Positions 1 through 22,414 of a DNA stretch of 22,414 nt are shown here, one piece after another. Under the pieces are notes generated by a model. The model was not told the DNA's origin. It ran no database searches and saw nothing but the letters and a program-made list of their open reading frames with translations. Each line of letters starts with the position of its first letter. Position 1 is the first letter of the stretch. This DNA comes from a virus. The translations under genes were made by a program, and so were the position numbers. Location: positions 1 to 22,414 of IMG/VR virus record IMGVR_UViG_3300025849_000249; one strand, written 5' to 3'.

Positions 1-300
1 GTATTACGGTAATAGCTAACAGATCAATTCTCTTCTAGGGGGTAGGGGGTTGATTTGTTTTTTATTACCATCCTTATCTCTAATCTATTAATCTAGTTGT
101 ATTATGATACTCAAATGAATGAATAATAAGTCATTAAAGTATAAAAAAGACATTAATGAGTGCTTTTATCGTAACATATTTAATGTTTTATTTGTTACAA
201 GAAATGGGCAAAATTATTTATTATATAAAAAAAATAAAAAGAAATATTTGTTTTTTATTATTTCTTTGTGTTTATTTGAATAAACAAACATAAAAACACC
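1..300. other. Gene-free leader upstream of the rightward gene chain
   Basis: No open reading frame of useful length starts here on either strand. The stretch is very AT-rich except for two adjacent five-G runs, GGGGGTAGGGGG, at 38-49. Its right end carries a candidate promoter and a palindrome just before the first gene; these are listed separately. The left edge is cut by the window, so the function of the first 100 bases cannot be judged. Confidence 0.6.
247..286 (+). promoter_or_regulatory. Candidate Bacteroidota-type promoter overlapped by a palindrome
   Basis: TTTG at 247-250 is followed after 20 bases by TTTATTTG at 271-278, one mismatch from the Bacteroidota -7 consensus TAnnTTTG. 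A near-perfect inverted repeat, TGTTTATT-TG-AATAAACA (269-286), overlaps the -7 box, and the start codon follows at 301. The placement suggests an operator at which a repressor would block the promoter. No regulator gene was recognised in the window, so this is inference from position and symmetry. Confidence 0.4.
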
Positions 301-1014
301 ATGAAAAAATGTAATAAATGCCAAAAAAATAAAGAATTTAATGATTTTTACAAACGTGAGGGAAAGGGATATCCCGATGGACATATGACTTCTTGTAAAG
401 ATTGCTACAAAAAATCTTCTAAATTATATAAGAAAAGAACCAACTATTCTGAATATTATTATGAAAATAATAAAGAAAAATTTATAGAAAAAAGCAAAAT
501 TCAATACATTAAAAATAAAAATAATACTGAATGGGTTAAATCAAAAAAAGAAAAAGATAAAATTTGGCAAGAAAACAATAAAGAACACATAAAAAAAGTA
601 GCAAAAAAACTTAAAGAAAAATATAAAAATGATCCAATTTATTTATCTAAAATGAATGATGAAATGTGGGCAAGAATAGCCAAAACTAAGATGCACGTAA
701 CTAATTCAGTTAGATTTAAAAAAAGAAAATATTCAACACCAAGACACAACCCAAATTTTAGTAAAGAAATTACTATTGAGTTTTTACAAAAATTAAGGAA
801 AAAACAAAAAAGTAAATGTCATTGGCTTGGTATTGATATTGATTTTACTAGACAAGATTTTCTTAAATCACCAAGTATAGACAGATTAGATAATAATAGA
901 GGATATTATCAAGACAATGTTGTATTAACTACCTTATTTGCTAATTACGCTAGAAATCGTGCTTCAGTAGAAGAAATGAAAAATTTTGTGTCAGAAAATT
1001 TAATTATAGCGTAA
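301..1014 (+). CDS. HNH-like (endonuclease VII-type) nuclease with N-terminal zinc ribbon
   Basis: This 237-residue, lysine-rich protein has two parts. The N-terminus carries a CxxC...CxxC zinc ribbon (C4, C7, C32, C35). The C-terminus has KCHWLG (172-177) followed by SIDRLDNNRGYYQDNV (192-207) and an RN-containing helix. That arrangement is seen in phage His-Me-finger/HNH endonucleases of the endonuclease VII-like type, where the motif is usually P-S-[LI]-D-R-[IL]-D-x2-[KR]-G-Y-x2-[DE]-N-[VI]. The middle (about 40-150) is highly charged and probably helical, perhaps a DNA-binding spacer. It is the first gene of a rightward chain and its stop overlaps the next start (TAATG). It may be a free-standing homing-type nuclease or a recombination nuclease. 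The nuclease family is fairly sure; the biological role is not known. Confidence 0.75.
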   Translation: MKKCNKCQKNKEFNDFYKREGKGYPDGHMTSCKDCYKKSSKLYKKRTNYSEYYYENNKEKFIEKSKIQYIKNKNNTEWVKSKKEKDKIWQENNKEHIKKVAKKLKEKYKNDPIYLSKMNDEMWARIAKTKMHVTNSVRFKKRKYSTPRHNPNFSKEITIEFLQKLRKKQKSKCHWLGIDIDFTRQDFLKSPSIDRLDNNRGYYQDNVVLTTLFANYARNRASVEEMKNFVSENLIIA

Positions 1015-1256
1015 TGGAAAACAAAGAAAAATCAATATACACGTTAAAATCTATTGCTAGATGGATGGAAAAATCTAGTATAGAATATACAGAGGAAACT
1101 TTAAAAATTGCTCTGAATGATGTTTTAATCTATTATTCTCTATACTTAAAAGAGAATCAATATTATTGTGAAATGTGTTCTAGAGAAATATCTAAAGGAG
1201 ATCACAATTTTTCAGACATATGTGGAAATTGCTTAGAAAACGAAGTGGATTTATGA
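1014..1256 (+). CDS. Small zinc-ribbon protein
   Basis: This 80-residue protein has a helical N-terminal part followed by a C-terminal zinc ribbon, C52xxC55 and C70xxC73, with 14 residues between the pairs. Its ATG overlaps the previous stop codon by one base and its own stop overlaps the next start as ATGA, so the three genes are almost certainly translationally coupled. The zinc-binding fold is inferred from cysteine spacing alone. It could bind nucleic acid or a host protein; no family was recognised. Confidence 0.65.
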   Translation: MENKEKSIYTLKSIARWMEKSSIEYTEETLKIALNDVLIYYSLYLKENQYYCEMCSREISKGDHNFSDICGNCLENEVDL

Positions 1257-1417
1257 AAAAATATATAATTGAATCAGACACACCTTTATTAGATTTTACT
1301 CTAGAATATCCTAGAATATCAATTGATGTAGAATATGCTGCAACTTTGAGTAATTTTGAGTTGTTATCATATTTAGACGAAGAATTTATGTTTTACCATG
1401 AAAGGATTGATAGATGA
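1253..1417 (+). CDS. Small acidic protein of unknown function
   Basis: This is a 54-residue acidic, aromatic-rich protein beginning MKKYIIESD. The frame is open from 1220, but the ATG at 1253 is chosen because it forms an ATGA overlap with the upstream stop, the pattern seen through this gene chain. It ends in a second ATGA overlap with the next gene. No domain is recognised. Position between zinc-ribbon miniproteins suggests an accessory early protein. Confidence 0.6.
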   Translation: MKKYIIESDTPLLDFTLEYPRISIDVEYAATLSNFELLSYLDEEFMFYHERIDR

Positions 1418-1548
1418 AATTAGAAGGATTAGAAGTGCTGAAAAAAAGCATTATTAAGCAAATTGAATACGACAATGTCAAAATTGTCCGTATGGAGCAA
1501 AAGCTAAAAGAAATTGAAAAGAAAATATTTGAAATAAAAAACCAATGA
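1414..1548 (+). CDS. Short coiled-coil protein
   Basis: A 44-residue gene, MKLEGLEVL...EIKNQ, joined by ATGA overlaps to the genes on both sides (start at 1414, stop at 1546-1548). The sequence is rich in K, E, I and L, with hydrophobic residues spaced as in a single amphipathic helix or coiled coil over residues 5-42. No family is recognised. The two overlapping junctions are the main evidence that it is translated. Confidence 0.6.
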   Translation: MKLEGLEVLKKSIIKQIEYDNVKIVRMEQKLKEIEKKIFEIKNQ

Positions 1549-1697
1549 TAAAGAAAGAATGGCTATTTATGGAGACCAAGCCTAAAAAAGAAGACATTAT
1601 TTGGTCTTGCTCTATATGTGGGTCACTAAATAACATAAACAACATACAATGTGGCAAATGCCAAAAAATACAAGAACCAACAGACACAAAATATTAA
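1545..1697 (+). CDS. RanBP2-type zinc-finger miniprotein
   Basis: This is a 50-residue protein starting in an ATGA overlap with the preceding gene. Residues 20-39 fit the RanBP2 zinc-finger pattern W-x-C-x2-C-x3-N-x6-C-x2-C exactly, with W20, C22, C25, N29, C36 and C39. Members of this fold bind single-stranded RNA or ubiquitin in eukaryotes, and related single fingers occur in bacterial and phage proteins. Apart from the finger there is only a short basic N-terminus and a short tail. Which ligand it binds cannot be told from the sequence. Confidence 0.65.
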   Translation: MIKKEWLFMETKPKKEDIIWSCSICGSLNNINNIQCGKCQKIQEPTDTKY

Positions 1698-1737
1698 TAT
1701 GAATATATGAATATAATCGCCTTAATAAATTAAGCCA

Positions 1738-1917
1738 ATGAAAATTCTAACTCCAAAAGAAAAAGCAATAGACATTATACATAAAATTTCAAAAGTAAAT
1801 GTAGAATGCTCTAAATCACTAGCAATTGTCGTTGTAAATGAAATTATAAAACAAAACGACAACACAAACTATTGGGAGAAAGTTAAATCAGAAATAATAG
1901 TATTAAACGAGCAATAG
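1738..1917 (+). CDS. Small conserved-looking phage protein (TPKEKA type)
   Basis: This is a 59-residue protein starting MKILTPKEKAIDI and ending in a YWEKVKSEI helix. The layout of a TPKEKA-like N-terminus, a central helix ending in a (D/N)EII motif and a YW..VK..I C-terminus is one I recognise as recurring in small hypothetical proteins of Bacteroidota phages. That is recollection, not a search. Function is unknown. A 40-base gap separates it from the zinc-finger gene, and the next gene follows after three bases. Confidence 0.65.
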   Translation: MKILTPKEKAIDIIHKISKVNVECSKSLAIVVVNEIIKQNDNTNYWEKVKSEIIVLNEQ

Positions 1918-1920
1918 CCA

Positions 1921-2103
1921 ATGATAACCTACTTAACATCCCTCTGCGTTATTTTCTTTACCTCAACGGTAATTCTTTGCCTTGTAAACTACAAAATAAA
2001 TAAGACCCTCAAGAGAACTAACGAAGAGGCTCAATATTGGTGTGAGTTGTATATTAATACAAGCAAAGACAATAGAAAAGACGAATACGATGATGTTATT
2101 TGA
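1921..2103 (+). CDS. Small single-span membrane protein
   Basis: This is a 60-residue protein. Residues 2-24 form one hydrophobic span (TYLTSLCVIFFTSTVILCLV), followed by a basic turn (KINKTLKR) and a charged tail, which suggests a short N-terminus outside and the tail in the cytoplasm. It starts three bases after the previous stop and is last in the rightward chain. It ends head-to-head with the leftward nuclease gene, overlapping it by 8 bases. Function is unknown. Confidence 0.6.
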   Translation: MITYLTSLCVIFFTSTVILCLVNYKINKTLKRTNEEAQYWCELYINTSKDNRKDEYDDVI

Positions 2104-2620
2104 TTCTAGTAGTAATGTCGCTTATTCTTAGGCTATAGCAATCAGCCTTTACAATGTAGTTGTTATCCTTACTCAAAGGATCAACCTTTCCTTTTTTACA
2201 TAACGTTGCCTTATCAAAGAAATCCTTTCTACGCATAAACCCCAATAGCCATCCCTTAGTGCAATCATCATGCACCATAGCAAAATAATAGTAATCACAC
2301 TTCTGACTAGCATTTGAACAAGCAACGCTAACAATATACTCCTCTCTTGGAGGAAAGTTGATTTTTTTAGTTTTAACCTCAATAGTTTTATCATTTATAA
2401 TCAAATCCCAATCATAGCTGGATTCATCGACAATTAAAGAATTAAATTGGTCTTCAGTTAAACTACTAAGCCTATTCTTATAAAACTTCAAAATCATCAC
2501 CTCACCAATTGCCCCATATAACTGACTAGCACCATTAGTGATTGAGTTGTTAAGATTAATGAAATCATAACGACCTCTAGCCTTAACTAAATCCTCCTCT
2601 GTAATAGCAACCTCATACAT
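2096..2620 (-). CDS. PD-(D/E)XK-type nuclease-like protein
   Basis: This 174-residue protein has a restriction-endonuclease-like core: E40 in GAIGEVMI, D72 in YDWDLII, then E81-V-K83 in TIEVKT. The order E...D...ExK matches the PD-(D/E)XK active site. Phage proteins with this layout act as nucleases on phage or host DNA or as Holliday junction resolvase-like enzymes; the substrate cannot be assigned here. It lies downstream of a small gene at 2815-2651 and faces the rightward chain convergently, with an 8-base overlap and no obvious terminator between. Fold assignment is moderate; catalytic activity is inference. Confidence 0.65.
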   Translation of the reverse strand: MYEVAITEEDLVKARGRYDFINLNNSITNGASQLYGAIGEVMILKFYKNRLSSLTEDQFNSLIVDESSYDWDLIINDKTIEVKTKKINFPPREEYIVSVACSNASQKCDYYYFAMVHDDCTKGWLLGFMRRKDFFDKATLCKKGKVDPLSKDNNYIVKADCYSLRISDITTRIK

Positions 2621-2650
2621 TATATAATCATTTGGTTATCAGCAAGTTAA

Positions 2651-2815
2651 CTAGCTACCACAAGCCTCGCACTCGGGATCATCAATAGAGCAAATACTTG
2701 TCCCATTGACTTCCATCTGAATAGAATGAATCCTATATCGAATATCAGCATCGTGAAACATATCTCCCGTTAGAGAACTCTCTAATTCTTTGATTTGGTC
2801 TAATTTTTCTTGCAT
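2651..2815 (-). CDS. Small coiled-coil protein with cysteine-rich tail
   Basis: This is a 54-residue protein, MQEKLDQIKELESSL..., with an N-terminal amphipathic helix and a C-terminal C-x6-C-x2-C cluster ending CEACGS. The frame stays open to a TTG at 2854, but the ATG at 2815 is preferred because no other gene here needs a rare start. The three cysteines could join a metal site, possibly in a dimer. It sits 30 bases upstream of the PD-(D/E)XK gene and is probably co-transcribed with it. No family is recognised. Confidence 0.55.
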   Translation of the reverse strand: MQEKLDQIKELESSLTGDMFHDADIRYRIHSIQMEVNGTSICSIDDPECEACGS

Positions 2816-3293
2816 CTCACAAAAATAACCACTTACCTTCTTGAAAGCAAACAAATTCTTTAAATTTTATGAAAAAAATTTTGGTGTTGAGAAGATTGAA
2901 ATCGATTTGAGAGAAAACTGCTTATGGTGATACCCACACCTAAAAATCAATAAATTGCCGTCAAAGCCATGGTAATCGATAGGGGAGGGGATGTACTTAA
3001 CATAATGAATGTTATATAACAAATATTTAACGGTTGTTAGGTCGTTTGTTTGTGTTCCTTTTGTGAATATTTCTGTTTGTTCTAATACACTAAACCCTAT
3101 CAAACCAATTAAAAGTAAATCAATCAAACCAATTACAAACCAAAACAAACCAAAGAACAAATTAAACTCAATCAATCAATCAATGCTATTTAAACGCGTT
3201 CTAATCAATTCAATTACTTTAATAGTGCAATCATATCAAACACAAACTAAACGTCTTATACAGCCTTATAATAGATAACACCCGTATAGGCAT
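2816..3293. other. Intergenic region with simple repeats
   Basis: This 480-base stretch has no convincing gene. It contains a low-complexity AACCAA-rich segment (about 3087-3184), a 13-base direct repeat ATCAAACCAATTA at 3099-3111 and 3123-3135, a (CAAT)4 tract at 3169-3184, and GGGGAGGGG at 2982-2990. A leftward frame at 3175-2867 is open but has no ATG and starts only at a TTG inside the CAAT tract. The promoter for the leftward pair at 2815-2096 probably lies here but was not pinned down. Confidence 0.5.
3099..3184. repeat. Direct repeat and (CAAT)4 microsatellite
   Basis: ATCAAACCAATTA occurs at 3099-3111 and again at 3123-3135. The same AACCAA-rich texture continues to an uninterrupted CAATCAATCAATCAAT tract at 3169-3184. 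Such tetranucleotide tracts can change length by slippage. No coding frame depends clearly on this one. Confidence 0.6.
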
Positions 3294-3320
3294 AAAAAAA
3301 GCCACCTTAAAAGGTAGCTT
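3294..3320 (-). terminator. Rho-independent terminator of the 5493-3340 operon
   Basis: On the minus strand AGCTACCTT-TT-AAGGTGGCT forms a nine-pair stem with one G-T wobble (3319 to 3300), followed at once by six T (3299 to 3294). It lies 20 bases beyond the stop of the last gene of the leftward accessory operon. The opposite orientation lacks a comparable T run, so termination is expected for leftward transcription only. Confidence 0.85.
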
Positions 3321-3339
3321 AATTAATTAGCTTGTTTAT

Positions 3340-3525
3340 TTATTTAATAATTATTTTATTATTAACATTTAATCCGTAAACCATTCTAATTATTATTTCA
3401 TTCGATTGATTAAGATGATTAATTGACCAATGTTTACAATTATCTAAGCTTTCAAACTCTTTGATAAATATATAACCATTGTTGTAAATCATATATTTCA
3501 ATTTGTTATTTGTTTCTTGTTTCAT
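3340..3525 (-). CDS. Small protein of unknown function, last in operon
   Basis: This is a 61-residue protein, MKQETNNKLKYMIY..., rich in N, I and K with alternating hydrophobic residues suggesting a small alpha/beta fold. Its start overlaps the stop of the upstream gene (ATGA), and a strong terminator follows its stop by 20 bases. No family is recognised. Confidence 0.6.
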   Translation of the reverse strand: MKQETNNKLKYMIYNNGYIFIKEFESLDNCKHWSINHLNQSNEIIIRMVYGLNVNNKIIIK

Positions 3526-3878
3526 GTTTTTTTAATTAATGTAAATATTAATATTAAATCATTATCAGTCATTTCATCCAATGACACAACATTTGTACCT
3601 TTCTTTATTTCGATGTAGTTTAGACCGTTGTCACTGTATTGAACACCTTTGTAAACAGTTACTTTGACCATACCAAAACGAGCGCTATTGATATATTTAA
3701 TACCAATAAAAGATCCGTCTTTTTGTTCATTAAAATCTAGATGAAAGATTAAAGTATCGTCATTTGATTGGTCAAAGCTTATTTCTGTTCGCCTTGTTAA
3801 TGCTTCTTTGCTTTCTTTCTTTAATAAATAGAAAGCCAGCAAAGCGCATAAAACAAATAAGGATAATAAAGCTATCAT
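3522..3878 (-). CDS. Membrane-anchored small protein
   Basis: This is a 118-residue protein with a hydrophobic segment at residues 2-19 (IALLSLFVLCALLAFYLL) followed by KKESK. That pattern fits an uncleaved signal anchor. The remainder is a soluble domain with beta-rich texture and no recognised motif. The start touches the stop of the cysteine-rich protein upstream and the stop overlaps the next start, so it belongs to the same translationally coupled operon. Function is unknown; possibilities include an envelope or superinfection-exclusion role, which is only a guess from topology. Confidence 0.65.
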   Translation of the reverse strand: MIALLSLFVLCALLAFYLLKKESKEALTRRTEISFDQSNDDTLIFHLDFNEQKDGSFIGIKYINSARFGMVKVTVYKGVQYSDNGLNYIEIKKGTNVVSLDEMTDNDLILIFTLIKKT

Positions 3879-4624: not shown

Positions 4625-4629
4625 GATTT

Positions 4630-4734
4630 CTATTTTTTACGTTTTTTATAATAATTCTTATTATTGTTTTCCTCTTTACGTGCTAAATATTCAAGCGTAA
4701 TGATGAATATTGCAAATAGTATATATAATATCAT
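4630..4734 (-). CDS. Very small membrane protein with basic tail
   Basis: A 34-residue gene, MILYILFAIFIITLEYLARKE..., has one membrane span at residues 1-18 and a strongly basic lysine- and asparagine-rich tail. Its ATG overlaps the stop of the preceding small membrane gene (ATGA). The overlap and the consistent span-plus-basic-tail design support translation. The long frame to 4995 that contains it is probably accidental. Confidence 0.5.
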   Translation of the reverse strand: MILYILFAIFIITLEYLARKEENNNKNYYKKRKK

Positions 4735-4862
4735 AATGACCCGTTTAAAAGACCGTAAATGAGCGCAGCGCATAGGGTTACAATCAATGTGCAACCGATG
4801 GTAAAACAAACCACATTTGTAATGGTTTCTATCTTGTTTGAAGTAAATAATAATTCTTTCAT
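4731..4862 (-). CDS. Very small membrane protein
   Basis: This is a 43-residue gene, MKELLFTSNKIETITN..., with a hydrophobic segment at about residues 14-40 (VVCFTIGCTLIVTLCAALIYG). The stop forms an ATGA overlap with the next tiny membrane gene, making a coupled pair. It follows an 80-base leader that contains a small hairpin. Function is unknown. The overlapping pair is reminiscent of paired small membrane proteins of phages, but no family was recognised. Confidence 0.55.
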   Translation of the reverse strand: MKELLFTSNKIETITNVVCFTIGCTLIVTLCAALIYGLLNGSL

Positions 4863-4942
4863 GGTGTATAAAATTTATGTTTAAAATTTGATAAAGACAC
4901 GGCAATAAATCACCGTGTTTCGGGAATTTATCCCTCATCAGT

Positions 4943-5155: not shown

Positions 5156-5175
5156 AATCTTGTTTTTTAGGTTAA

Positions 5176-5493: not shown

Positions 5494-5554
5494 ATGTAAG
5501 ATTACGAATTACATAATTAATATGCAACTATTGCAGCCAACAATTAAGAAAAAG

Positions 5555-5704: not shown

Positions 5705-5730
5705 TCTGCCAAAACCCAAATCTCAGAATA

Positions 5731-5978: not shown

Positions 5979-6045
5979 AAATTTCCTACAGAATACACGG
6001 AGAATTGTGTCTAGAAATTAATTAGATTTATTTTTAAAATAATAA

Positions 6046-7058: not shown

Positions 7059-7090
7059 ATCATGTATTTAAGTATTAATAATACTCAAAT

Positions 7091-7459
7091 CTAAAAACCA
7101 TGTCTGACAAATCCAAAATTATCTTTAAAAATATTATATTTTGATTTATAATTCTTTTTTACTGAAAAATGATTAATACCCTCAACTGCCTCAATGGGTA
7201 GCACATACCAAGAATTAAATATTTTAAAATAAATAGCAAACCAATCCACCTCATCTTTTGTGTAATCAATTTTAACATGACATTGATTGTCTTTCTTTTT
7301 CAGATACTCTGTAGACTTCACTTGGACGCGATGTAAGACATTATCTACATCAATGATTAAATCATACCTTGTGTAATGTGAAAATGGCTTAGAAACGATG
7401 TATCCCTTCTCCATGCAATGCGTAGCGAATAAAGACTCGGAATACTCTCCTAATTTCAT
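7091..7459 (-). CDS. PD-(D/E)XK endonuclease-like protein
   Basis: This 122-residue protein matches the short PD-(D/E)XK family in which the last motif is Q-V-K: GEYSE near the N-terminus (E5, E8), YDLIID with D33, then RVQVKST with Q46 and K48. Relatives resemble archaeal Holliday junction resolvases and intron-encoded endonucleases, and fold as a minimal restriction-enzyme core. In this operon, with ERF, exonuclease and helicase genes, a junction-resolving or nicking role is plausible but inferred. Its start overlaps the stop of the upstream glycosyltransferase as ATGA. All active-site positions appear intact for the QVK subtype. Confidence 0.7.
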   Translation of the reverse strand: MKLGEYSESLFATHCMEKGYIVSKPFSHYTRYDLIIDVDNVLHRVQVKSTEYLKKKDNQCHVKIDYTKDEVDWFAIYFKIFNSWYVLPIEAVEGINHFSVKKNYKSKYNIFKDNFGFVRHGF

Positions 7460-8502
7460 AAAATACTTAGTCTTGCTTGATTTTCTTTATCAATCCTATA
7501 CATATCTCTAACATACTCACCCAATTCCTTTCCAAGGGATTCTCTTAGAGATTTATCAAGGCTTAGTTCTAGTATTGATTCCACCCATTCATCTCCATTT
7601 GAGCATAAATCAATGTTTGCTCCCGTTCTTGAGAATGTTACCATATCTGATCCAATAAATGGTAGCCATTTTGCACCAGCCTCTAGCACTTTTAACTCGC
7701 TTTTGCATCTGTTGAAATCATTATCAAGTAATGGGGCAATAACTATGTCCATTTGATCAAAGAATCTAGCATATTGATTTACTCTAACACCACCCGAAAT
7801 AAATACGTTTTTGTTTTTACCATCGTCAGTAAATATTCCTAATTGATGATGCCACACTTTTTTAGCATAAGGAGTAACAAAGTCAGCACCCGATAATTGG
7901 AGAACCATATTTCTACGAAAAATCTTATTATTATTAAGCCTTCTAAATGGTATTTTCATTTGGTCTAAATCACCATAATGAGTTGTGCTACCAGCATAGC
8001 CAATTACCGTTTTATTTCTGTTTTTGGATTTAAGTTTCCTATCTGCCCATTGTGGGTCGTTTAGATCAATAGCATTCTTAGCTACAATCACGGGTTTGTT
8101 GGTGAAATGATCCTCTATTATTGCTTTTAAATATTCTGTACTAGTCCATACATAATCAGCAAAGGCTATGTTCATTAGGAAGTTGTTCTTCCACTCATTA
8201 TAATCTACATCATCCCTCCAAACAATAGGATGGTTTTCGGGCAGTTCCCATAGATCATCAACATCAATAATCACCTTAATGCCTTCTGCTTTTACCTTCT
8301 CAATAAGACCAAAATCAGCATCACCATATCCAATACTTCTATTGTAAACAAAATAGTCATACCCATCAATGACTACATCATTAGTGAAATTCTCTATAAA
8401 GTCGCAATGGTGTCCTTCCTTCTGTAGATATTCAAAAGGCTTTTTTAATCTGTGATAACTTATAGCATTATACTCAGACTTAACGCAAACTAAAAATCGC
8501 AT
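7456..8502 (-). CDS. Glycosyltransferase, GT-B fold, group 1/GT4-like
   Basis: This 348-residue protein resembles phage GT-B glycosyltransferases. The N-terminal half includes SYHRLKKP and a VIIDVDDLWELPENHP segment typical of this phage group. The C-terminal nucleotide-sugar-binding half has VIGYAGSTTHYGDL (about 168-181), then DIVIAPLLDN and SELKVLEAGA (about 276-285), where the glutamate corresponds to the conserved GT4 position binding the donor. Donor and acceptor are unknown: DNA bases, tail proteins and cell-surface glycans are all possible. It begins 23 bases inside a tiny membrane gene and is coupled to the downstream nuclease by ATGA. Confidence 0.75.
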   Translation of the reverse strand: MRFLVCVKSEYNAISYHRLKKPFEYLQKEGHHCDFIENFTNDVVIDGYDYFVYNRSIGYGDADFGLIEKVKAEGIKVIIDVDDLWELPENHPIVWRDDVDYNEWKNNFLMNIAFADYVWTSTEYLKAIIEDHFTNKPVIVAKNAIDLNDPQWADRKLKSKNRNKTVIGYAGSTTHYGDLDQMKIPFRRLNNNKIFRRNMVLQLSGADFVTPYAKKVWHHQLGIFTDDGKNKNVFISGGVRVNQYARFFDQMDIVIAPLLDNDFNRCKSELKVLEAGAKWLPFIGSDMVTFSRTGANIDLCSNGDEWVESILELSLDKSLRESLGKELGEYVRDMYRIDKENQARLSIL

Positions 8503-10013: not shown

Positions 10014-11036
10014 TTAAAATAATTCATTCTTATGCGTTTTTTTAATTGAGTCTTCAAAGATATCGATTCCATTTAAAAAGTATCTGTTTTTGGAGAGATT
10101 ATAATCCAATTTTATATATCCATTCTTAAAAACATCGAAATCCTTTACCTTTTGAGTCTTTATCATTACACTTTTATTTTCCTCTTCACTCTTTCTGTAA
10201 GGTCGCCAAACAGAAGAAACCGTGTCAGAGCCATCTGTTATTGATCCACCACCTTTTATCTTATACATATCGGGTTCGGGGTAATTACCCGTCTCGTCAA
10301 TTTGCGGAGTTAGCTGATGATAAACCACATGATGGCTTACATTAAATTGCTTGGCAAACACCTCTTGTCTCTTAATAAACGATGTCAGATATTGTAAATC
10401 ATTCATTGTAGTAGGCTTACTCACCTTTAAGAAAGGATCAATAACCGTTATGTTTACTTTATTAATCTTTATTAACGTCTTAAACTGATTCTCAATGCTT
10501 TCTATGTCGTGATTTGAGGGGTATACATAAAACAATCTATCATTGAATTGCTCTATCATCCTATCACATTTCACTTTAGTGGAGTACTTTGGATCGCACC
10601 CCAGCATTGTCTTAACCCAATCCTTAACAAACTTATGTCTAGGATAGTTCTCGGGTGAGAATACGGCTACTTTGGCATTTGGGTCTTGTAGTAGCTTGAT
10701 TAGAATTAAGAAATACAACCAAGAAGACTTTCCTTCATTTGAATATCCCGTCCAACTATTTACCCATCCATATTTCCACTTAAACATTCTATCATATTCC
10801 TTGATATGTGTTGTCTCAGCATTGCTACCTTGATTCAGCCAATCCCAAAAATCAGATTTATCATCATTAACACCATCTAAGTCCGTTAATGAATTACTTT
10901 CTACATATTGAGAAAGACTCCTCTTCATTGATTGAATCGTCATTACAATCTCCTTTTTGGTCTTCTGAGGTAGATTGGTCTTTATCACCACCACATTGTG
11001 GAGATGATCTATATTCTCTAGAAAGCTATCAATCAT
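10014..11036 (-). CDS. DnaB/Twinkle-like replicative helicase (RecA-fold ATPase)
   Basis: This 340-residue ATPase carries Walker A GYSNEGKSS (97-105), with K103 and S104, an SPENYPRHK segment (127-135) typical of Twinkle and phage DnaB-like helicases, and Walker B ITVIDPF with D200. It also has a sensor-like VVYHQLTP (237-244) and the GGGSITDGSD loop (262-271). Family members form hexameric rings that unwind DNA at the phage fork. There is no N-terminal zinc finger or TOPRIM primase domain; the first 80 residues are helical and acidic, so a separate primase (host or outside this window) is implied. It overlaps the upstream small gene by four bases and is followed at once by the transglycosylase. 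Confidence 0.85.
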   Translation of the reverse strand: MIDSFLENIDHLHNVVVIKTNLPQKTKKEIVMTIQSMKRSLSQYVESNSLTDLDGVNDDKSDFWDWLNQGSNAETTHIKEYDRMFKWKYGWVNSWTGYSNEGKSSWLYFLILIKLLQDPNAKVAVFSPENYPRHKFVKDWVKTMLGCDPKYSTKVKCDRMIEQFNDRLFYVYPSNHDIESIENQFKTLIKINKVNITVIDPFLKVSKPTTMNDLQYLTSFIKRQEVFAKQFNVSHHVVYHQLTPQIDETGNYPEPDMYKIKGGGSITDGSDTVSSVWRPYRKSEEENKSVMIKTQKVKDFDVFKNGYIKLDYNLSKNRYFLNGIDIFEDSIKKTHKNELF

Positions 11037-11314: not shown

Positions 11315-11504
11315 AAATGTAATCTTTAACTTTTTCTAAATCTTTCTTGTCCGTAATCTTAATACTTTCAGCTGAATTAACAAAAATTTGTTTACAATTT
11401 GTTACTTTATTTATTGCGAATATCTCATTACCCTCTAAAACTAGGTTAACAAAGCTATCCTCTTTGAAATGTTTAAAGTAATGTTCAATCAGTTTTTTTG
11501 TCAT
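11295..11504 (-). CDS. Small protein of unknown function
   Basis: This 69-residue protein begins MTKKLIEHYFKHF and is a mixture of helix and strands with no recognised motif. The frame is open to 11558, but starting at 11504 reduces the overlap with the HNH gene to 20 bases and matches operon habit. It overlaps the following basic gene by 20 bases. Confidence 0.55.
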   Translation of the reverse strand: MTKKLIEHYFKHFKEDSFVNLVLEGNEIFAINKVTNCKQIFVNSAESIKITDKKDLEKVKDYIYDRTKF

Positions 11505-11847
11505 GTGTTTTGTTTTTGTGGCAAGGTTTGCACAACACTTGCAGTCCATCTTTCTCAACGAATAACCTATTACAGAACACGGCTAAATCATCAAATGACT
11601 TTAGCGTTCCGCAAGGTATTATATGGTCTATATCAATCTCTTTACGCAAGAACCAATCATTACAATCAGCGCATTGATATTCCCATCTTGATCTACTCTT
11701 ATAAGTAATAGGTCTTCTATTATCCTTAGCAGCCTCATTGTGAGGTTTCCAGCCTCTCATGTATCTATTCCTTAGTAATGATCTAATCCATCCAAAGAAA
11801 GCAGCCTCAGTCATTGTGCCGTTATTCCTTGTCTTAGGAGTTTTCAT
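11485..11847 (-). CDS. HNH endonuclease
   Basis: This is a 120-residue HNH nuclease. A zinc-binding pair C59xxC62 is followed by IDIDHIIPCG (71-80), with catalytic H75, an asparagine-containing middle, and LQVLCKPCHKNKT (102-114), which supplies C106, C109 and the last histidine H110. The N-terminus is basic (RNRYMRGWKP). Such small HNH enzymes act as homing or packaging-associated nucleases in phages. Here it lies far from where terminase genes would be and inside the recombination operon, so a homing or recombination role is more likely. Its start overlaps the preceding 50-codon gene as ATGA. Confidence 0.85.
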   Translation of the reverse strand: MKTPKTRNNGTMTEAAFFGWIRSLLRNRYMRGWKPHNEAAKDNRRPITYKSRSRWEYQCADCNDWFLRKEIDIDHIIPCGTLKSFDDLAVFCNRLFVEKDGLQVLCKPCHKNKTHDKKTD

Positions 11848-11996
11848 CTAATAACCTTAAAGAATAACTCTAAGTGAAATTTCTTAAAAAAACTATCGTA
11901 GCTAATTCCTAGCAATACCTTTCCTCTAATACTCAACAAGTCCATTCCGTAGAAATCCTCATCGTTAAAATAAAATGTCAATAAATCTATTCTCAT
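11844..11996 (-). CDS. Small protein of unknown function between glycosyltransferase and HNH genes
   Basis: This 50-residue gene fills what would otherwise be a 145-base gap. It starts in an ATGA overlap with the glycosyltransferase stop (11996) and ends in an ATGA overlap with the HNH start (11844-11847). The sequence, MRIDLLTFYFNDEDFYG..., is rich in F, L and Y, with a hydrophobic basic C-terminus (FFKKFHLELFFKVIR). The two perfect junctions argue strongly for a real gene. No family is recognised. Confidence 0.7.
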   Translation of the reverse strand: MRIDLLTFYFNDEDFYGMDLLSIRGKVLLGISYDSFFKKFHLELFFKVIR

Positions 11997-12745
11997 TTGT
12001 ACACTTTGTTTAGGTTAATAATATGTTCACTTGTGTATCTATCATCCCACTTAATCAATGGTAATCCAAAATCAGATACACCATCATGGATTGCTTTACC
12101 CTTTCTTTTTTTCCATTTGGTCGAAATATCTTCTCCGTTAGGCATTCTCTCATTCAAATGATTAATATAATAATCACAAGTCTCCTCCCAATGCTCCACA
12201 GATATTCCCTTACCAAAATGCTTAACCGTTCCACCAATCATTTGTAATTGATCAATACCCAATGGAACACGATTATTAAAGTGTACTCTAGAATTTGGTC
12301 TGAATAACATTGGAATATCCCTATACTCACATCCAATATATTCTCTATCAATAAATGGTTTATCTACATCATTGGGAGTTATGTATACATCGAACAATCT
12401 AAAGAAATAACTGAAATTAGAACCCCAATTAATCTCATCAAAATAAAAATGTTCATCAGCATCAAAATACAACATCCAATCAATATCCTCCTCCTTACGC
12501 ATTGCATAATCATATAGGTCTTGCCTTTGAGTTGTCTCAAGCGTTTTGCGGACTTCTGAGCGACTTTCCCACTTATCACTTGTGATTACACGTTTAACTA
12601 GCTTATGCTCGCTTAGAATGTCTCTAGTACCGTCTGTTGAGCAATCATCGAATGCTATTACACAATCAAAATGATATGATAATCTATCTAATGTAGATTT
12701 AAGTATTACCTCTTCATTTCTAACTCTTGTTATAGCTACTTTCAT
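11993..12745 (-). CDS. Family 2 glycosyltransferase (GT-A fold)
   Basis: This 250-residue protein has the GT2 layout. The N-terminal MKVAITRVRNEE is the nucleotide-binding strand, VIAFDDCSTDGTRD (29-42) is the first aspartate motif, and WMLYFDADEHF (90-100) contains the metal-binding D95-x-D97. The C-terminal half (RPNSRVHFNNRVP, then HWEE) resembles the acceptor side of phage GT2 enzymes. It would transfer a sugar from a nucleotide sugar to an unknown acceptor. It overlaps the upstream GT4-like gene by four bases, so the two likely act in sequence. DNA modification and modification of phage or host surface are both possible. Confidence 0.8.
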   Translation of the reverse strand: MKVAITRVRNEEVILKSTLDRLSYHFDCVIAFDDCSTDGTRDILSEHKLVKRVITSDKWESRSEVRKTLETTQRQDLYDYAMRKEEDIDWMLYFDADEHFYFDEINWGSNFSYFFRLFDVYITPNDVDKPFIDREYIGCEYRDIPMLFRPNSRVHFNNRVPLGIDQLQMIGGTVKHFGKGISVEHWEETCDYYINHLNERMPNGEDISTKWKKRKGKAIHDGVSDFGLPLIKWDDRYTSEHIINLNKVYK

Positions 12746-13605
12746 TGTAATATTTGATTTACTATTTTTTTAGCATCAAAGTAATCCTCTGCTATACTTC
12801 TGTAGTAATCTGTATTTGGTCTATATAGTTTCTCAATTCCATTAAGAATTTTATCTTTATTGAATGATTTATTAAATCTCCTACCCGATAAATTGTTTCT
12901 TAGCATCTCACCTATATTCTCTCTAGTAACAATACTATCGTACTTATCACCGTTGTATCCTCTAGCATCATAAACAATAACACATCTACCACAAGCCAAT
13001 GACTCATAAGCTGATCTACCTAGACCAACGCATATGTCTGCCTCATTAAACGTATCATTGCTTATGGCTAATCTAGCATCTCTTGTTGGAGGTATGCATT
13101 CAGTTTCAAATCCCAAAGACTTTACGTTCTCTTGAGCGTTTATGTTCTGACACAATGCAAATATCTTTTGAGGTGTTTCGTTTAATTCTTTGGTAGGATA
13201 ACAAACATCCAAATCAACGGGATTTAGTATTACATCACTTTTATATCCCATCAGTAATAGATGGTATTGAATTTCATTTGAAATAGAAATGTATCTATCA
13301 GCACCTTTAATTGGTTGTTCTAAATGCGGAGCAATACCATGACACATCATAATAAGCTTTGAGTACTTAGCCTTCTCCAAGACAATCTTTACACAAGTAT
13401 TATGATTAGCAATAACCAAATCATACGTTACATTGGGAATGGTTGTGTATACTGAACCAAATCTTTGAGTCCCAACACCACCAACATCAATAGAAAAGAC
13501 ATCTACAGAATGCCCTAACTTCTTTAAAGTAGAGTAAACCGTAAATGTCCAATTCTCAGAACCACCAAAAGTATTTAAATGATTATTTGTTAATAATATT
13601 TTCAT
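12742..13605 (-). CDS. Glycosyltransferase, GT-B fold, GT4-like
   Basis: This 287-residue protein begins MKILLTNNHLNTFGGSE, the glycine-rich acceptor-side loop of GT4 enzymes. HGIAPHL and DRYISISNEIQYHL follow. The donor-binding region has ICVGLGRSAYESLACGRCVIVYD (about 191-213), with the conserved E in AYESLACG. At 287 residues it is somewhat shorter than usual GT4 proteins, but both half-domains are recognisable. It overlaps the RecB-like nuclease upstream by four bases and the GT2 gene downstream by four. Acceptor unknown. Confidence 0.75.
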   Translation of the reverse strand: MKILLTNNHLNTFGGSENWTFTVYSTLKKLGHSVDVFSIDVGGVGTQRFGSVYTTIPNVTYDLVIANHNTCVKIVLEKAKYSKLIMMCHGIAPHLEQPIKGADRYISISNEIQYHLLLMGYKSDVILNPVDLDVCYPTKELNETPQKIFALCQNINAQENVKSLGFETECIPPTRDARLAISNDTFNEADICVGLGRSAYESLACGRCVIVYDARGYNGDKYDSIVTRENIGEMLRNNLSGRRFNKSFNKDKILNGIEKLYRPNTDYYRSIAEDYFDAKKIVNQILQ

Positions 13606-17751: not shown

Positions 17752-17754
17752 ACT

Positions 17755-19932
17755 TTATCCCCCTATTGCATTTGTAAAATTATTTTGTCTACCCACCACA
17801 CTAACTAAATCAGCACCATTTATCCTAAATGTTTGTTCTCCTTGAATTGCTTTAAGAAAACTAGCCATGCTATTACCATTGCTACCATCATTTGCACCCC
17901 CTCCCGTTGCACTTTCTCTTGCTGCTGCACTTCTCTTTACTTTTTGTAATTGTCCCTTACCTATTGCTATTAAAGCACTACCTCCAGCTATCATTGCAAG
18001 TGCTGCTGGAACATTACCTTTTATAGCTTCTTCAAACCCTTTACTAGCTAATAAAGCACCCGTTCCTAAAGAAAATAATGCTTGTCCTAAACCAACTATT
18101 ATTCCAGCAAAAGCAGCCATTGTTTTTTCTTTTTGCTCTTCTTTACTAATAGTATCATCGGGAGGAGTTAATATTTCTGACCAAACATCAGCCATAGCAT
18201 CTGTTATTGGTCTTAAAATATCAATAATTGTAAGACCACCTTCTTTCATTTTTTCACCAGCTTTCTTTAAATCTTCTTTACCACTTATCCCAATAGATGA
18301 AATTCTGTCACTATTTTTACGAAGAATACCATCTATGGTGCTTTGTTTTATTTCAAGACCCATCTTTTTAAGATTATCTTGCGCCACATCAGACCCCATT
18401 ACGTGACCCGTCTTCATATTTACTTGTTTTGAAAGTATATCAACTGAACCCGTTGTAGCTCCCGTTGGAGGTGGCTTAATCCTATTAGATAAATTAACTA
18501 GAATCTCATAAAACTTTTTTATTTCAGCTAATTTATCTAACGATGTTCCCGTAAGATCATTTCTTTTCAATTCTAAATCATATAGTAAGGCTTGCTCATG
18601 AGCCATCCCTCCAAGTTCAATTGCGCTTAATTGACTTAATGAATTTAATTCCTCTTTAAGTTTCTTTTTATTATCTATAAGGTCTATTTCTGATTCTATG
18701 CCTTTTAAAATCCCATCTTTTATTGTTTTTTCTTCTTTAAGTTGATCAGCCACTTTAACATCAAGCACCCTCTTTATATCGGTCAAACGCAATATATCCT
18801 TAGAGATATTTTTTGTTTCAATACCGACATCGTTCATTTTTTTCTTTAGTTCATTAGCATTTTTAATTAGTTTATTTAATACAAGTAAGTCTGTAATTTC
18901 TTCTTTTGTTAGTATTCTTTGTTGACTTTTAATTAGCGTTTCACCAACGGGAATTTTTCTAACCGCTTCTTCAGCTTCTTTTGTTTGCTTTGGAGTTTTT
19001 TTCTCAACTTTAGGAGTAGCATCTGCTATTAATTCAGTTAAAGTATACTTTTCTTTAAGGAGTTTTAATTCTTCCTTAAGTCTACCGCTTCTTTGTAACG
19101 CACTTTCCTCGGTAAGTTTATCACCTTTAAGTAATTCTTTAAATCTTACAAAAGCCTTAAATAATTTACTTATTGCTGATAGTGTTGCTACTATAGCTGG
19201 TATAACTACCGTACCCATTGATTCAGAAAAAGTAATCCAAGCAGCATCAAATTGCTTTAATTGACCTTGATAGGTATCTAATCCTCTAGCTGCATCTCCA
19301 ATAATACCCGAATCAGTCATGGCTTGCATTATTATATTAAGCCTTGCTTGTGTTTTTATTACCTCGCTAGTGTTTTGTACGGTTGAGGTTAAACCCATCC
19401 TATACAATTCTAATTGTAAAGCTGATTGTTTTAAGTTAATACCAAATTGATCTAAAACTTCGGGAGAACCAGCTAATGCGGATAAAAATCTTTTTTGTGC
19501 ATTTGAATCTGCTATACCAAAAAATGAGGCTAAATCTAAAGACAATGTCTGCATTTTAACAGACATATTAGCAGCCTCTTTACTTACAAAACCTAATCCA
19601 CTAAAGAATGCGTTAAAAGAAACCGCTCCTTTTTTGAGTTGTGTCTCATTTCTATTAAGTGAGTCAGCTAATTTACCTAACTCAGTTTCAACAGAACTAG
19701 ATATTCCAGCAAAAGACCTAGCAAAACTACGCTCAACGGTTTCCATCTCACCAGCAGCATCGGCAAATTGTTTTGATAATTGAAATATTTGTTGACCAAC
19801 AAAAGCAGTTGAAAAAGCACCAATAGTTCTGTTTAATGTCTTAAAACCCGATTGTACTTTCTTTATTCCTTTCTGAAATTGTTCCGCTCTGAGTGAAACG
19901 AAAACTGATAATTTATTGTCTCCTAATGCCAT
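17755..19932 (-). CDS. Tail tape measure protein
   Basis: This 725-residue protein sets tail length and occupies the tail-tube lumen. The N-terminus (LSVFVSLRAEQFQKGIKKVQSGFKTL) and the long alanine- and serine-rich helical part up to about 250 match the tape-measure pattern. A charged coiled-coil section (about 270-480) follows, then a hydrophobic glycine/alanine region (about 608-660: GIIVGLGQALFSLGTGALL, ALAMIAGGSALIAIG), probably the part inserted into the host membrane during DNA entry. At about 1.5 angstroms per residue, the tail would be around 110 nm. The gene follows the chaperone pair and precedes the tip gene, the standard siphovirus order. Confidence 0.9.
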   Translation of the reverse strand: MALGDNKLSVFVSLRAEQFQKGIKKVQSGFKTLNRTIGAFSTAFVGQQIFQLSKQFADAAGEMETVERSFARSFAGISSSVETELGKLADSLNRNETQLKKGAVSFNAFFSGLGFVSKEAANMSVKMQTLSLDLASFFGIADSNAQKRFLSALAGSPEVLDQFGINLKQSALQLELYRMGLTSTVQNTSEVIKTQARLNIIMQAMTDSGIIGDAARGLDTYQGQLKQFDAAWITFSESMGTVVIPAIVATLSAISKLFKAFVRFKELLKGDKLTEESALQRSGRLKEELKLLKEKYTLTELIADATPKVEKKTPKQTKEAEEAVRKIPVGETLIKSQQRILTKEEITDLLVLNKLIKNANELKKKMNDVGIETKNISKDILRLTDIKRVLDVKVADQLKEEKTIKDGILKGIESEIDLIDNKKKLKEELNSLSQLSAIELGGMAHEQALLYDLELKRNDLTGTSLDKLAEIKKFYEILVNLSNRIKPPPTGATTGSVDILSKQVNMKTGHVMGSDVAQDNLKKMGLEIKQSTIDGILRKNSDRISSIGISGKEDLKKAGEKMKEGGLTIIDILRPITDAMADVWSEILTPPDDTISKEEQKEKTMAAFAGIIVGLGQALFSLGTGALLASKGFEEAIKGNVPAALAMIAGGSALIAIGKGQLQKVKRSAAARESATGGGANDGSNGNSMASFLKAIQGEQTFRINGADLVSVVGRQNNFTNAIGG

Positions 19933-19951
19933 AACACAAATTTAACTAATA

Positions 19952-20269
19952 TTATATAGGTAATTTTACTGCCTTGCCAATAATAGATTTTATCTCTTCG
20001 TGAGTAGGTAGAGGGGTTTTCTTTTCGTCAGCATTGTCGTGAGGAAGTTTAAATAGGTCTTTTGGAGATATTCTTTTCTTGTTACCAAAAGAGCAATTGA
20101 TAGTCAAAGTAGCTAAGTACCTTGTTCTATCCCAATGCTGATTATGATTATGAACCCATGACTCAATAGACCTTAAAAAGTCTGACCAAGTCATGTTCCA
20201 AAAGATATCGGGAGATATTCCTAGAGTACCAATTGCTTGGTCTAGTATATCATCCCATGTAACTAATTT
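19952..20269 (-). CDS. Tail assembly chaperone, T domain reached by -1 frameshift
   Basis: The -1 frame relative to the upstream chaperone gene is open from the A9 run (20275-20267) to a stop at 19952, adding 105 residues. It begins KLVTWDDILDQAIGTLGISP and continues FWNMTWSDF (codons 20203 onward), matching the W-x-x-[IL]-[LF]-x2-A-x-G-x-L-x-[IL]-x-P-x2-F-W-x-[ML]-T pattern of phage tail assembly chaperones. The first ATG in this frame is only at 20194, after that motif. Starting there would remove the conserved segment, which argues that the part is made only as a gpG-T-type fusion of about 233 residues. Confidence 0.75.
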   Translation of the reverse strand, partial: KLVTWDDILDQAIGTLGISPDIFWNMTWSDFLRSIESWVHNHNQHWDRTRYLATLTINCSFGNKKRISPKDLFKLPHDNADEKKTPLPTHEEIKSIIGKAVKLPI

Positions 20270-20652
20270 TTTTTTGAATCGCTTTTGTTGGATTCTACAA
20301 CATTTCTAGATAATCCGTTGTTCTTGTCGTTCTTTAAATCTCTAGAACCTATCATTGTATTCATCACTTTTGCGGAATCATCCTCTGAGATATCCATTGC
20401 CCAATCGTAGAACTCATGAATAGTGTAATCTATAGAAACACTACTCTTCTCATCATATGCCACGCATCCAGCATACAATAGCCAACAGAATGCTTTAGCT
20501 TGTTTTTTACCATTAAAGGCTTCTTCTATTTGAGATAATTCAACATCCATACCTTCACAAAATATTGCATAAGTATTCATATTGAAGACTAGTCCTCTTT
20601 TTTTTCCACCAATGTCTATTAGACAAGTGCCTCTGTGTTTGTTTGTTGCCAT
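20263..20652 (-). CDS. Tail assembly chaperone, gpG-like
   Basis: This 129-residue acidic protein (MATNKHRGTCLIDIGG...) lies between the tail tube gene and the tape measure, where lambda-type phages carry gene G. It has a helical core (MNTYAIFCEGMDVELSQIEEAF, FCWLLYAGCVAY) and a polar C-terminus ending SDSKKN. The last codons are read through a run of nine A, giving AAA AAA AAT TAG in frame zero. A -1 slip at A-AAA-AAA would bypass the stop and add the downstream T domain. The short and fused forms together are expected to coat the tape measure and recruit tail tube protein. Confidence 0.8.
   Translation of the reverse strand: MATNKHRGTCLIDIGGKKRGLVFNMNTYAIFCEGMDVELSQIEEAFNGKKQAKAFCWLLYAGCVAYDEKSSVSIDYTIHEFYDWAMDISEDDSAKVMNTMIGSRDLKNDKNNGLSRNVVESNKSDSKKN
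20267..20275 (-). promoter_or_regulatory. Slippery A9 run for programmed -1 frameshift
   Basis: Nine consecutive A on the minus strand (20275 to 20267) contain the heptamer A-AAA-AAA in the correct phase for -1 slippage, three to four codons before the frame-zero stop (20265-20263). The -1 frame immediately encodes the conserved tail-chaperone motif. No strong downstream pseudoknot was evident by eye. Confidence 0.7.
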
Positions 20653-20675
20653 AAAATTATTGTTTAATTAATGAT

Positions 20676-21149
20676 TTAAGGTGTTGCAAATGTTGGAGGA
20701 TTTGAAGTTCCTAAAGCAAGTACTCCACTTCCAACTAGATTACCACTAAAACTAACCGGTTGTTCTACCTCTGCACTTTGGTCTAAAGAACTTATGTATG
20801 CGAAACCATACCAAAAGTTACCTCCTTGTCCCCAAGCTACTTTTAGTTTTGCTCTTTGAGAAAAATATGTCCACAAGGTAAGTATACCCGTATTAGTTTG
20901 AGCAGTACCCGATGCTTCTGCGGTAAGTGAAAGATCAACCATACTTTCAAAGTCTATACTCCAACTCTTCTGACCACCGATTACTTCAGTCCATCCCTCA
21001 CTTGACTTTGTAGATATATCGGGGTTTTCTCCCGAAATAGATAAACTTGAAGACTTTGATAATGCTACAGCTATCCAAGTATCAGCAGTTGCGGATGCAT
21101 CGTTATTAGGTACATATAAAGTTAGTTCAGTTCCGTTGATTACACTCAT
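20676..21149 (-). CDS. Major tail tube protein (TP901-1-like)
   Basis: This 157-residue protein has the features of a siphovirus tail tube subunit. It starts MSVINGTELTLYV, then SSSLSISGENPDIST (33-47), which corresponds to the beta-strand and loop of the tube fold, SWSIDFE (62-68), a QRAKLKVAW strand, and the C-terminal PVSFSGNLVGSG. Hexamer rings of such subunits stack into the tail tube around the tape measure. It is related along its length to the next upstream gene (21744-21193). A TAnnTTTG-like box lies just upstream, in keeping with high expression. Confidence 0.75.
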   Translation of the reverse strand: MSVINGTELTLYVPNNDASATADTWIAVALSKSSSLSISGENPDISTKSSEGWTEVIGGQKSWSIDFESMVDLSLTAEASGTAQTNTGILTLWTYFSQRAKLKVAWGQGGNFWYGFAYISSLDQSAEVEQPVSFSGNLVGSGVLALGTSNPPTFATP

Positions 21150-21165
21150 TTTTTAATATTTTACT

Positions 21166-21173
21166 CAAAGATA
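21166..21173 (-). promoter_or_regulatory. Possible -7 box upstream of the tail tube gene
   Basis: TATCTTTG on the minus strand (21173 to 21166) exactly fits TAnnTTTG, and the start codon at 21149 follows about 17 bases later. No TTTG was found at the expected -33 distance, so this could be chance. A separate promoter for the abundant tail tube gene would be reasonable. Confidence 0.3.
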
Positions 21174-21192
21174 AATAAAAAAAAGAATATTA

Positions 21193-21744
21193 TTACTCAG
21201 TAACCCCCGTAATATTAAAATCTGCGTTATAAGAGAGAACATCCTCATTGTTTGCTATTACCTCATATTGATTAACATAGCAATATCCACTAAAATAAGC
21301 AACTCCATCACTTACTAAATCAAACTTTAATTTAGTTCTTTCTATTAGGTATTGGTCTAAAACAGATGAAACGCTTTGTATTTTAGGAGCATTCTCCCAA
21401 TTAATATTATAAGAATCCCAATAATGATTTGTTTCTTCCCAAAAAAGACCCTCTGATTTAATCTCTAATAATCCATCAGCAGAAAAACTACCCGATCTTA
21501 TTCCCATCATTATATCCCTCCATCCCGAATGGGCAGTCTGATATAAAGTTTGATCCCAAGTGAAATTAGATGACTCCCAATTTGTATTTGCAGCCTCCCA
21601 ATAGTAACTAGTATCAGATGATACTATGATCGGTATTTTAGTAGATATGTCATGTGTTTCACCACTAAATGATATATTATTGGATTTTGAAAGTAGAAGT
21701 TGATCGTCATCAAGATATAAAACAAATAAACTTCCATTAAGCAT
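21193..21744 (-). CDS. Tail-tube-like protein with tryptophan-heptad insertions
   Basis: This 183-residue protein shares the tail-tube framework with its downstream neighbour: LSKSNNISFSGETHDIST (18-35) aligns with LSKSSSLSISGENPDIST, and ERTKLKF plus NADFNITG at the end match QRAKLKV and SGNLVGSG. It also contains two insertions with tryptophan every seventh residue, W49-W56-W63 (WEAANTN-WESSNFT-WDQ) and W102-W109-W116 (WEETNHY-WDSYNIN-WEN). It may be a second tube protein, a specialised ring at one end of the tail, or a surface-exposed minor subunit. It overlaps the tail terminator gene upstream by eight bases. Confidence 0.65.
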   Translation of the reverse strand: MLNGSLFVLYLDDDQLLLSKSNNISFSGETHDISTKIPIIVSSDTSYYWEAANTNWESSNFTWDQTLYQTAHSGWRDIMMGIRSGSFSADGLLEIKSEGLFWEETNHYWDSYNINWENAPKIQSVSSVLDQYLIERTKLKFDLVSDGVAYFSGYCYVNQYEVIANNEDVLSYNADFNITGVTE

Positions 21745-22165
21745 TACTTATCACATTTGCCTCAAACACTAATATTTTAGTAAAATATTCGTATTGCCCA
21801 TCATCATCATCTAAATACCGTTGGGTGGTCTGTTTAAATATATACATTGTGTCAGCACCAAAATCTGATGTAGCATTTCTAACTCTTATCTGTTGGAGTA
21901 TTAAATTGGATATATCATCGCAATCATCTTGCCCTCCATAGTTTAATGGGTATTTGGTGTGTACTTGGACTTGCACCTCATACACACCCCCAAATCTATC
22001 TTTCAACGGATCGTCAACCAATCCCGTTGCTTGTACAACAATGAAGGGATATGTAGTTTGGTCTGTAGCTTTAGCCACTACGGGGACTGCACTAGCATCA
22101 TAGATTATATTATCATCTAATAACCCATAAATATATGCCCTTACATCTTTAGTACTATCATTCAT
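21737..22165 (-). CDS. Tail terminator / completion protein (DUF3168-like)
   Basis: This 142-residue protein begins with a helix (MNDSTKDVRAYIYGLL), followed by VPVVAKATDQTTYPFIVVQ, YEVQVQVHTKY and a later YEYFTKILVFEA strand. This is the order of the small tail-completion family that includes DUF3168 proteins and gpU-type terminators, which cap the tail tube where it meets the head. Gene order (terminator, tube, chaperones, tape measure) fits. It overlaps the upstream and downstream genes by eight bases each. Confidence 0.7.
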   Translation of the reverse strand: MNDSTKDVRAYIYGLLDDNIIYDASAVPVVAKATDQTTYPFIVVQATGLVDDPLKDRFGGVYEVQVQVHTKYPLNYGGQDDCDDISNLILQQIRVRNATSDFGADTMYIFKQTTQRYLDDDDGQYEYFTKILVFEANVISNA

Positions 22166-22412
22166 ATTCTTCTAAACCGTCTAGATATTTATCAAAGAGA
22201 ACCAAAAAACTTGGCTTTATCCTAAGATGCTTTATATCTTTTATGTTGATTTTATCCTTAATTACACTAAACTCATCTGATTTAGCATAGAAGTCGTTTA
22301 AATCCTTATTTACAGAGGCTATAACGTCTTCGTTTGTCTCGGATAGTGTTAGTGTACCATTCTCCTCTAAAGTGCCGTAAACCTCAAGCATTTGCTTCTT
22401 AGCATCCACCAT
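22158..22412 (-). CDS. Small protein of unknown function at window edge
   Basis: This 84-residue acidic protein starts MVDAKKQMLEVYGTLEENG, with the ATG only two bases from the window end, so an upstream start cannot be excluded. It lies just upstream of the tail terminator gene, in the head-to-tail joining zone, but shows no recognisable connector motif. It may be a head completion or minor structural protein; this rests only on location. Confidence 0.5.
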   Translation of the reverse strand: MVDAKKQMLEVYGTLEENGTLTLSETNEDVIASVNKDLNDFYAKSDEFSVIKDKINIKDIKHLRIKPSFLVLFDKYLDGLEEYE

Positions 22413-22414
22413 TG

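Follow-up and report, generated by a model that had tools for sequence, protein, structure and literature searches.

Why should a virus carry none of the copies of a four-base word that its base composition leads one to expect? The question is raised by IMG/VR virus record IMGVR_UViG_3300025849_000249, a phage sequence of 22,414 bases and 31.9% GC (guanine plus cytosine), referred to here in its entirety as the window. IMG/VR assigns the record to its linear class, which often denotes a fragment. A preliminary description, made from the letters of the sequence, reported that CCTG and its complement CAGG are absent, that CCAG occurs only as CCAGC and CTGG only as GCTGG, and that GGCC also seemed to be missing. 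It suggested that the phage evades restriction or some other defence directed at specific sequences, with either more than one system or an atypical asymmetric recognition at work, and proposed counts against Markov and codon-shuffled controls together with a comparison of related phages. Our analysis indicates that the missing words are probably the sites of several superimposed restriction systems of the host, directed at double-stranded DNA that lacks modification. Avoidance of restriction sites is itself well known. The near-complete loss of many asymmetric 4–5-mers is unusual, as are the discrete, lineage-specific sets in which these words are lost and the recurrence and separability of the losses across unrelated viruses.

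Words missing from both strands of the window

Exact counting gave 0 CCTG, 0 CAGG, 0 GGCC, and 1 CCGG. CCAG occurs 17 times, always as CCAGC, and CTGG occurs 9 times, always as GCTGG (26 in all); CCAGA, CCAGT, and CCAGG number 0. The absences read from the sequence by eye are thus exact. Further words beyond those listed in the preliminary description are absent (AGCCC, GGWCC, and CCCGC) or occur once (GAGCT and CAGTG), and ACAGC (4 occurrences) and ACAGT (2 occurrences) are largely lost too. The earlier estimate that about 60 copies of CCTG and CAGG would be expected from base composition agrees with the computed value of 60.6. A maximal-order Markov model predicts 43.7 copies, dinucleotide-preserving shuffles predict 77.7 ± 8.0 (minimum 58 in 200 shuffles), and synonymous-codon shuffling of the 19.7 kb of coding sequence predicts 47.9 ± 5.7 (minimum 30 in 500). 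CCAG[AGT], also observed 0 times, is expected 60.5 ± 7.0 times in the dinucleotide shuffles and 48.4 ± 5.6 times under codon shuffling; the expected values for GGCC are 19.5 and 7.9. The depletion exceeds what composition and codon usage predict, as is found where restriction sites are avoided.

Codon choice reflects the missing words in the manner that had been proposed. Before codons that begin with G, proline is encoded by CCC 23 times, CCA 5 times, CCG once, and CCT never; before codons that begin with A, the corresponding counts are 4 for CCC, 32 for CCA, 3 for CCG, and 20 for CCT. CCCG/CGGG is over-represented (69 observed versus 24.5 expected), which confirms the over-use that had been remarked upon. 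Read in the sense of the messenger RNA, CCTG and CAGG each number 0, which shows that both orientations have been cleared. This two-strand elimination rules out selection at the level of RNA and indicates that the pressure acts on double-stranded DNA.

Word sets in related and unrelated viruses

About 50 related IMG/VR contigs were fetched with four proteins of the window as queries, namely the tail protein, helicase, HNH protein, and glycosyltransferase. These contigs are fragments and partly redundant; those within a lineage are related to each other, and counts pooled from them overlap and are not independent. According to their missing words, they sort into discrete types designated A (that of the window), B, C, and D. 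Type A lacks CCTG, CCAG[AGT], and CCGG; in the pooled, overlapping type A contigs, CCTG occurs 6 times versus 627 expected and CCAGA occurs 0 times versus 191. A subgroup of type A (L024, L025, L028, and L029) keeps ACAGT, and L025 keeps CCAGT as well. Type C lacks CCAG, CCTG, and GGTC (0/394 for GGTC) and retains CCGG and CCCG. Type D lacks CCAG, CCTG[ACG], and GGTC and retains CCTGT, CCGG, and CCCG. Type B, represented by L004 alone, lacks GCCC, CCCG, most CCGG, CCTG[AC], and CCAGT. Other words are scarce throughout: GGCC, GAGCT, CAGTG, ACAGC, and GGACC in nearly all contigs of the family, and AGCCC in most of them. The type A set persists in contigs that have quite different tail genes.

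Many palindromic 6-mers are near zero in type A (AGATCT 0/182, GCATGC 0/42, GGATCC 0/41, and GTGCAC 0/32), and many are nearly missing from type C and D contigs as well. Few gapped bipartite words are depleted; CAG(N8)TTG, which occurs 4 times versus 57 expected in the pooled, redundant type A contigs, is possibly a Type I-like bipartite site. At the protein level, the isolates nearest to the window phage are Nonlabens phage P12024S (48% for Erf) and Tenacibaculum phage JQ (32% for the helicase), which makes a marine flavobacterium its likely host. Both isolates have lost mainly palindromic words (GGCC and CCGG, with GATC in JQ), and the asymmetric words are not lost from them. The count of GATC on both strands of JQ (L038) is 0 versus 125, and this phage is annotated with two DNA methyltransferases.

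The same words are eliminated in viruses outside the family. In a comparison sample of 132 viral contigs, which was picked by two arbitrary 14-mers and is not fully random, a palindromic 4-mer is eliminated in 60 contigs and a non-palindromic 4-mer in 7. The non-palindromic 5-mers that are recurrently eliminated in this sample include CAGTG (9 contigs), CCAGA (6), ACAGC (5), CCAGT (4), and GAGCT (3). One contig, L222, resembles the family of the window in its terminase region alone, and weakly (28% over 108 residues). It has lost CCTG (0/47), CCAGA (0/26), ACAGC (0/21), CAGTG (0/16), and GAGCT (0/14) and retains CCAGC (34 copies), CCAGT (37), and ACAGT (27), a pattern that is nearly that of L025 and comes close to the combination lost from the window. 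L222 is probably a flavophage too, given the 56% identity between its terminase and the one encoded by Nonlabens phage P12024L. Contigs with relatives of the L222 terminase, which are not independent of one another, eliminate CCAG (12 contigs), CAGTG (10), CCTG (8), CCAGA (7), and GAGCT (6) in varied combinations.

Losses outside the family also occur singly. We chose ten test words, as well as the thresholds for elimination, after the data were seen. Each of these words is eliminated somewhere among 238 non-family contigs while its sister words are kept: CCTG in 5 contigs, CCAG in 10, CCAGA in 4, CCAGT, CCAGC, and CCTGC in 2 each, ACAGC in 7, CAGTG in 28, GAGCT in 15, and AGCCC in 10. Elimination of GGTC on its own was not found among the 238. 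The separate loss of the component words rules out a single degenerate or palindromic motif. Because each word is eliminated alone outside the family, the odd set of the window is best read as the sum of separate specificities, which favors the first of the two options that the preliminary description had left open.

Probable host restriction and its alternatives

Elimination from both strands, the loss of the same words from unrelated contigs, and the failure of the word sets to follow the alleles of shared nucleases fit selection imposed by the host, and the suggested escape from a sequence-specific defence is supported to that extent. We infer restriction as the agent, the host as its source, and a mostly Type IIS/IIT-like character for the systems. 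The last of these fits words that are contiguous, 4–5 bp in length, and cleared from both strands with no preference for orientation, as expected of asymmetric Type II targets. The proposed systems would have asymmetric targets (CCTG, CCAGA, CCAGT, GAGCT, CAGTG, ACAGC, and AGCCC) as well as palindromic ones (GGCC, CCGG, and GGWCC), with CCTG and CCAG[AGT] representing superposed independent specificities rather than a single motif. Long-term selection by Type IIS/IIT-like enzymes, and perhaps by some Type III enzymes, would have led the phage to purge these sites, mostly through synonymous change, and lineages that meet different host repertoires would come to lack different discrete sets. The palindromic losses in the same genomes (GGCC, GGWCC, AGATCT, and GCATGC) are the usual signature of restriction.

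Precedents exist for parts of this model. BsrI recognizes ACTGG, the complement of CCAGT. Asymmetric Type II enzymes (IIS/IIT) resemble the window words in that their targets are asymmetric and 4–5 bp in length, and CCAGA, reported as a Type II 5-methylcytosine specificity in Neisseria (PMC7046676), coincides exactly with a word that has been eliminated; however, no enzyme of this kind has so far been connected with the host of the window phage. CCAGA was the only one of the asymmetric words that our literature searches turned up. GAGG/CCTC is a Type IIS specificity in Helicobacter pylori (PMC3936762), and CCTC is cut by MnlI (PMC4081073). In the survey of Rusinov et al. (2018), nearly all avoidance concerned orthodox Type II sites and none concerned Type I or IIG sites (PMC6286503), although the survey leaves room for single asymmetric Type II cases. 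Both in the window and in the avoidance described there, short words have almost entirely disappeared from double-stranded DNA, the palindromes GGCC, CCGG, and GGWCC among them, but the family of the window erases several asymmetric 4–5-mers jointly and in lineage-specific sets. Pelagiphage lineages similarly vary in their density of GANTC (PMC9516812); in both cases marine phage lineages differ, although the pelagiphages are affected in one palindromic, host-methylated motif and the family of the window in many asymmetric words. CCWGG and CCGG methylation in a metagenome-assembled genome (MAG) of sea-ice Polaribacter, which also encodes homologues of the enzymes of GGCC and AAGACC (Type III) systems (PMC12570018), is consistent with the palindromic part of the losses.

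Several points weigh against host restriction. The analysis identified neither a host genome nor an enzyme or methylation pattern, and we know of no described enzyme that recognizes bare CCTG, CCAG, or GGTC. The action of so many asymmetric systems at once would be unusual, and contigs of the same lineage are related and hence do not count as independent cases. In addition to the absence of Type I and IIG site avoidance, the survey found avoidance of Type III sites to be very rare (PMC6286503).

The word losses point to several bacterial DNA-cutting defences with targets of a kind that, according to the survey, phages seldom avoid. If the agent is restriction, phage genomes provide a direct readout of unknown asymmetric specificities among bacteria that have not been cultured, viruses can be grouped by the host defences they have encountered with the eliminated set as a fingerprint, and testable predictions for host methylomes follow. 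A broader proposal, which we regard as possible though doubtful, is that aquatic flavobacteria carry widespread, undescribed, and diversifying defence systems whose asymmetric targets are very short and based on CCNG or CAG (CCTG, CCAG, CCAGA, CCAGT, CCAGC, CCTGC, ACAGC, CAGTG, and ACAG), and that these systems purge every phage site. Were this true, specificities could be read from word elimination in phages without any host.

Type III restriction-modification systems with switchable recognition domains are unlikely to lie behind the majority of the asymmetric words. A CAG core, which is found in several Type III sites, is common to many of the eliminated words. Type III sites are asymmetric and 4–6 bp in length (PMC3936762), and the recognition domains diversify. 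However, Type III cutting usually needs two sites in head-to-head orientation, so that clearing one strand suffices (PMC6286503); this rule does not predict the clearing of both strands seen in the family of the window, and residual sites in type A show no consistent skew. Moreover, GCCC, CCCG, and CCGG contain no adenine. A separate group of contigs (L088–L127), which encode relatives of the window glycosyltransferase at about 30% identity, includes many that lack ACAG/CTGT (e.g., 0/28 and 2/68), CCGG, and GGCC. Their residual ACAG sites are skewed to one strand (162 versus 30, with the baseline skew of unselected words not computed), which suggests that Type III systems may contribute in that group.

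Less probable still is an agent encoded by the phage itself, namely endonucleases that cut host or rival DNA at the missing words while the phage is spared by its own word loss. The window does encode HNH and PD-(D/E)XK-like proteins, and no DNA methyltransferase was recognized among the open reading frames inspected in the window or in a 30.9-kb type D contig, neither of which is a complete genome. The two nuclease genes common to all types nevertheless have alleles that cross between types with different word sets. The PD-(D/E)XK protein of the window shares 99% identity with type D copies and 65% with some other type A copies. For the HNH protein, the copies in type A contigs L151 and L023 share 95–96% identity with type C copies and 82–84% with that of the window; nuclease copies within type A differ by 17–39%. 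The word set does not follow the nuclease allele, and this exchange rules out both shared genes as determinants; a nuclease encoded beyond the contigs analysed might still play that part. Of the 369 bases of the PD-(D/E)XK gene, 8 differ between the window and type D contig L064. A pair of these differences recodes an arginine synonymously from CGG to AGA and deletes a CCGG, a word kept in type D but not in type A. Finally, unrelated phages eliminate the same words as the window, and ten or more unrelated words are not explicable by one or two nucleases.

Selection against all CCDG words by one modification-dependent enzyme of the MspJI/LpnPI type is scarcely credible. The CmCDG specificity of LpnPI (CCAG, CCGG, and CCTG) matches the absence of CCTG, CCGG, and most CCAG from type A and the tolerance of CCCG, but it is ruled out by the retention of CCAGC in type A and CCGG in types C and D and by the loss of CCTG and CCAG singly in other phages. 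Mutational bias or host-like composition without selection might be invoked for a low-GC genome with skewed base composition but has almost nothing to recommend it, as the dinucleotide and codon-shuffled controls exceed the observed counts, word sets differ between sister lineages whose GC is similar, and cytosine deamination is refuted by the products of CCTG, which are not enriched (CTTG 1.13, TCTG 0.93), while CCCG is raised 2.68-fold instead.

Genes of the window

The window belongs to a tailed phage that encodes an Erf recombinase, helicase, exonuclease, glycosyltransferases, HNH and PD-(D/E)XK nuclease-like proteins, and tail proteins. Features that bear on the word losses are collected in Table 1.

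Table 1 Positions of features in the window.
Feature	Position	Strand	Remark
Region of word loss (whole window)	1..22414		CCTG/CAGG, CCAG[AGT]/[ACT]CTGG, GGCC, GGWCC, AGCCC = 0; CCGG, GAGCT, CAGTG near 0
HNH / endonuclease VII-like gene	301..1014	+	Absent from every other fetched family contig
Open reading frame with possible PD-(D/E)XK signature (EVKTKK)	2096..2620	-	Signature read by eye
PD-(D/E)XK endonuclease-like gene (PDDEXK_5)	7091..7459	-	Evidence against phage-encoded determinant
Glycosyltransferase gene	7456..8502	-	
DnaB-like helicase gene	10014..11036	-	Main marker for fetching relatives and sorting lineages
HNH endonuclease-like gene, in all types	11485..11847	-	Alleles swapped between types A and C; against phage-encoded determinant
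Glycosyltransferase gene	11993..12745	-	Counterparts in types A and B only
Glycosyltransferase gene	12742..13605	-	Counterparts in types A and B only
Sole CCGG of the window	20756..20759		Word count

Its absence from the other fetched contigs of the family means that the HNH / endonuclease VII-like gene is not the determinant of the shared set. The open reading frame with the EVKTKK signature gave no Pfam, PHROG, or PADLOC match and has relatives in two type A contigs only. For identification of the host, the window glycosyltransferase was aligned with genome contigs and gave no relative; the window Erf matched MAG contigs that are mostly short and do not share the avoidance seen in the window. 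A second possible PD-(D/E)XK-like protein, with the signature SVEVKY read by eye, is encoded in types B and D (L034:10226-10669, L004:13970-14407, and L149:4455-4898) and has no Pfam or PADLOC match. Its gene sits between an amidase-like gene and a glycosyltransferase gene, a place from which it is missing in the window.

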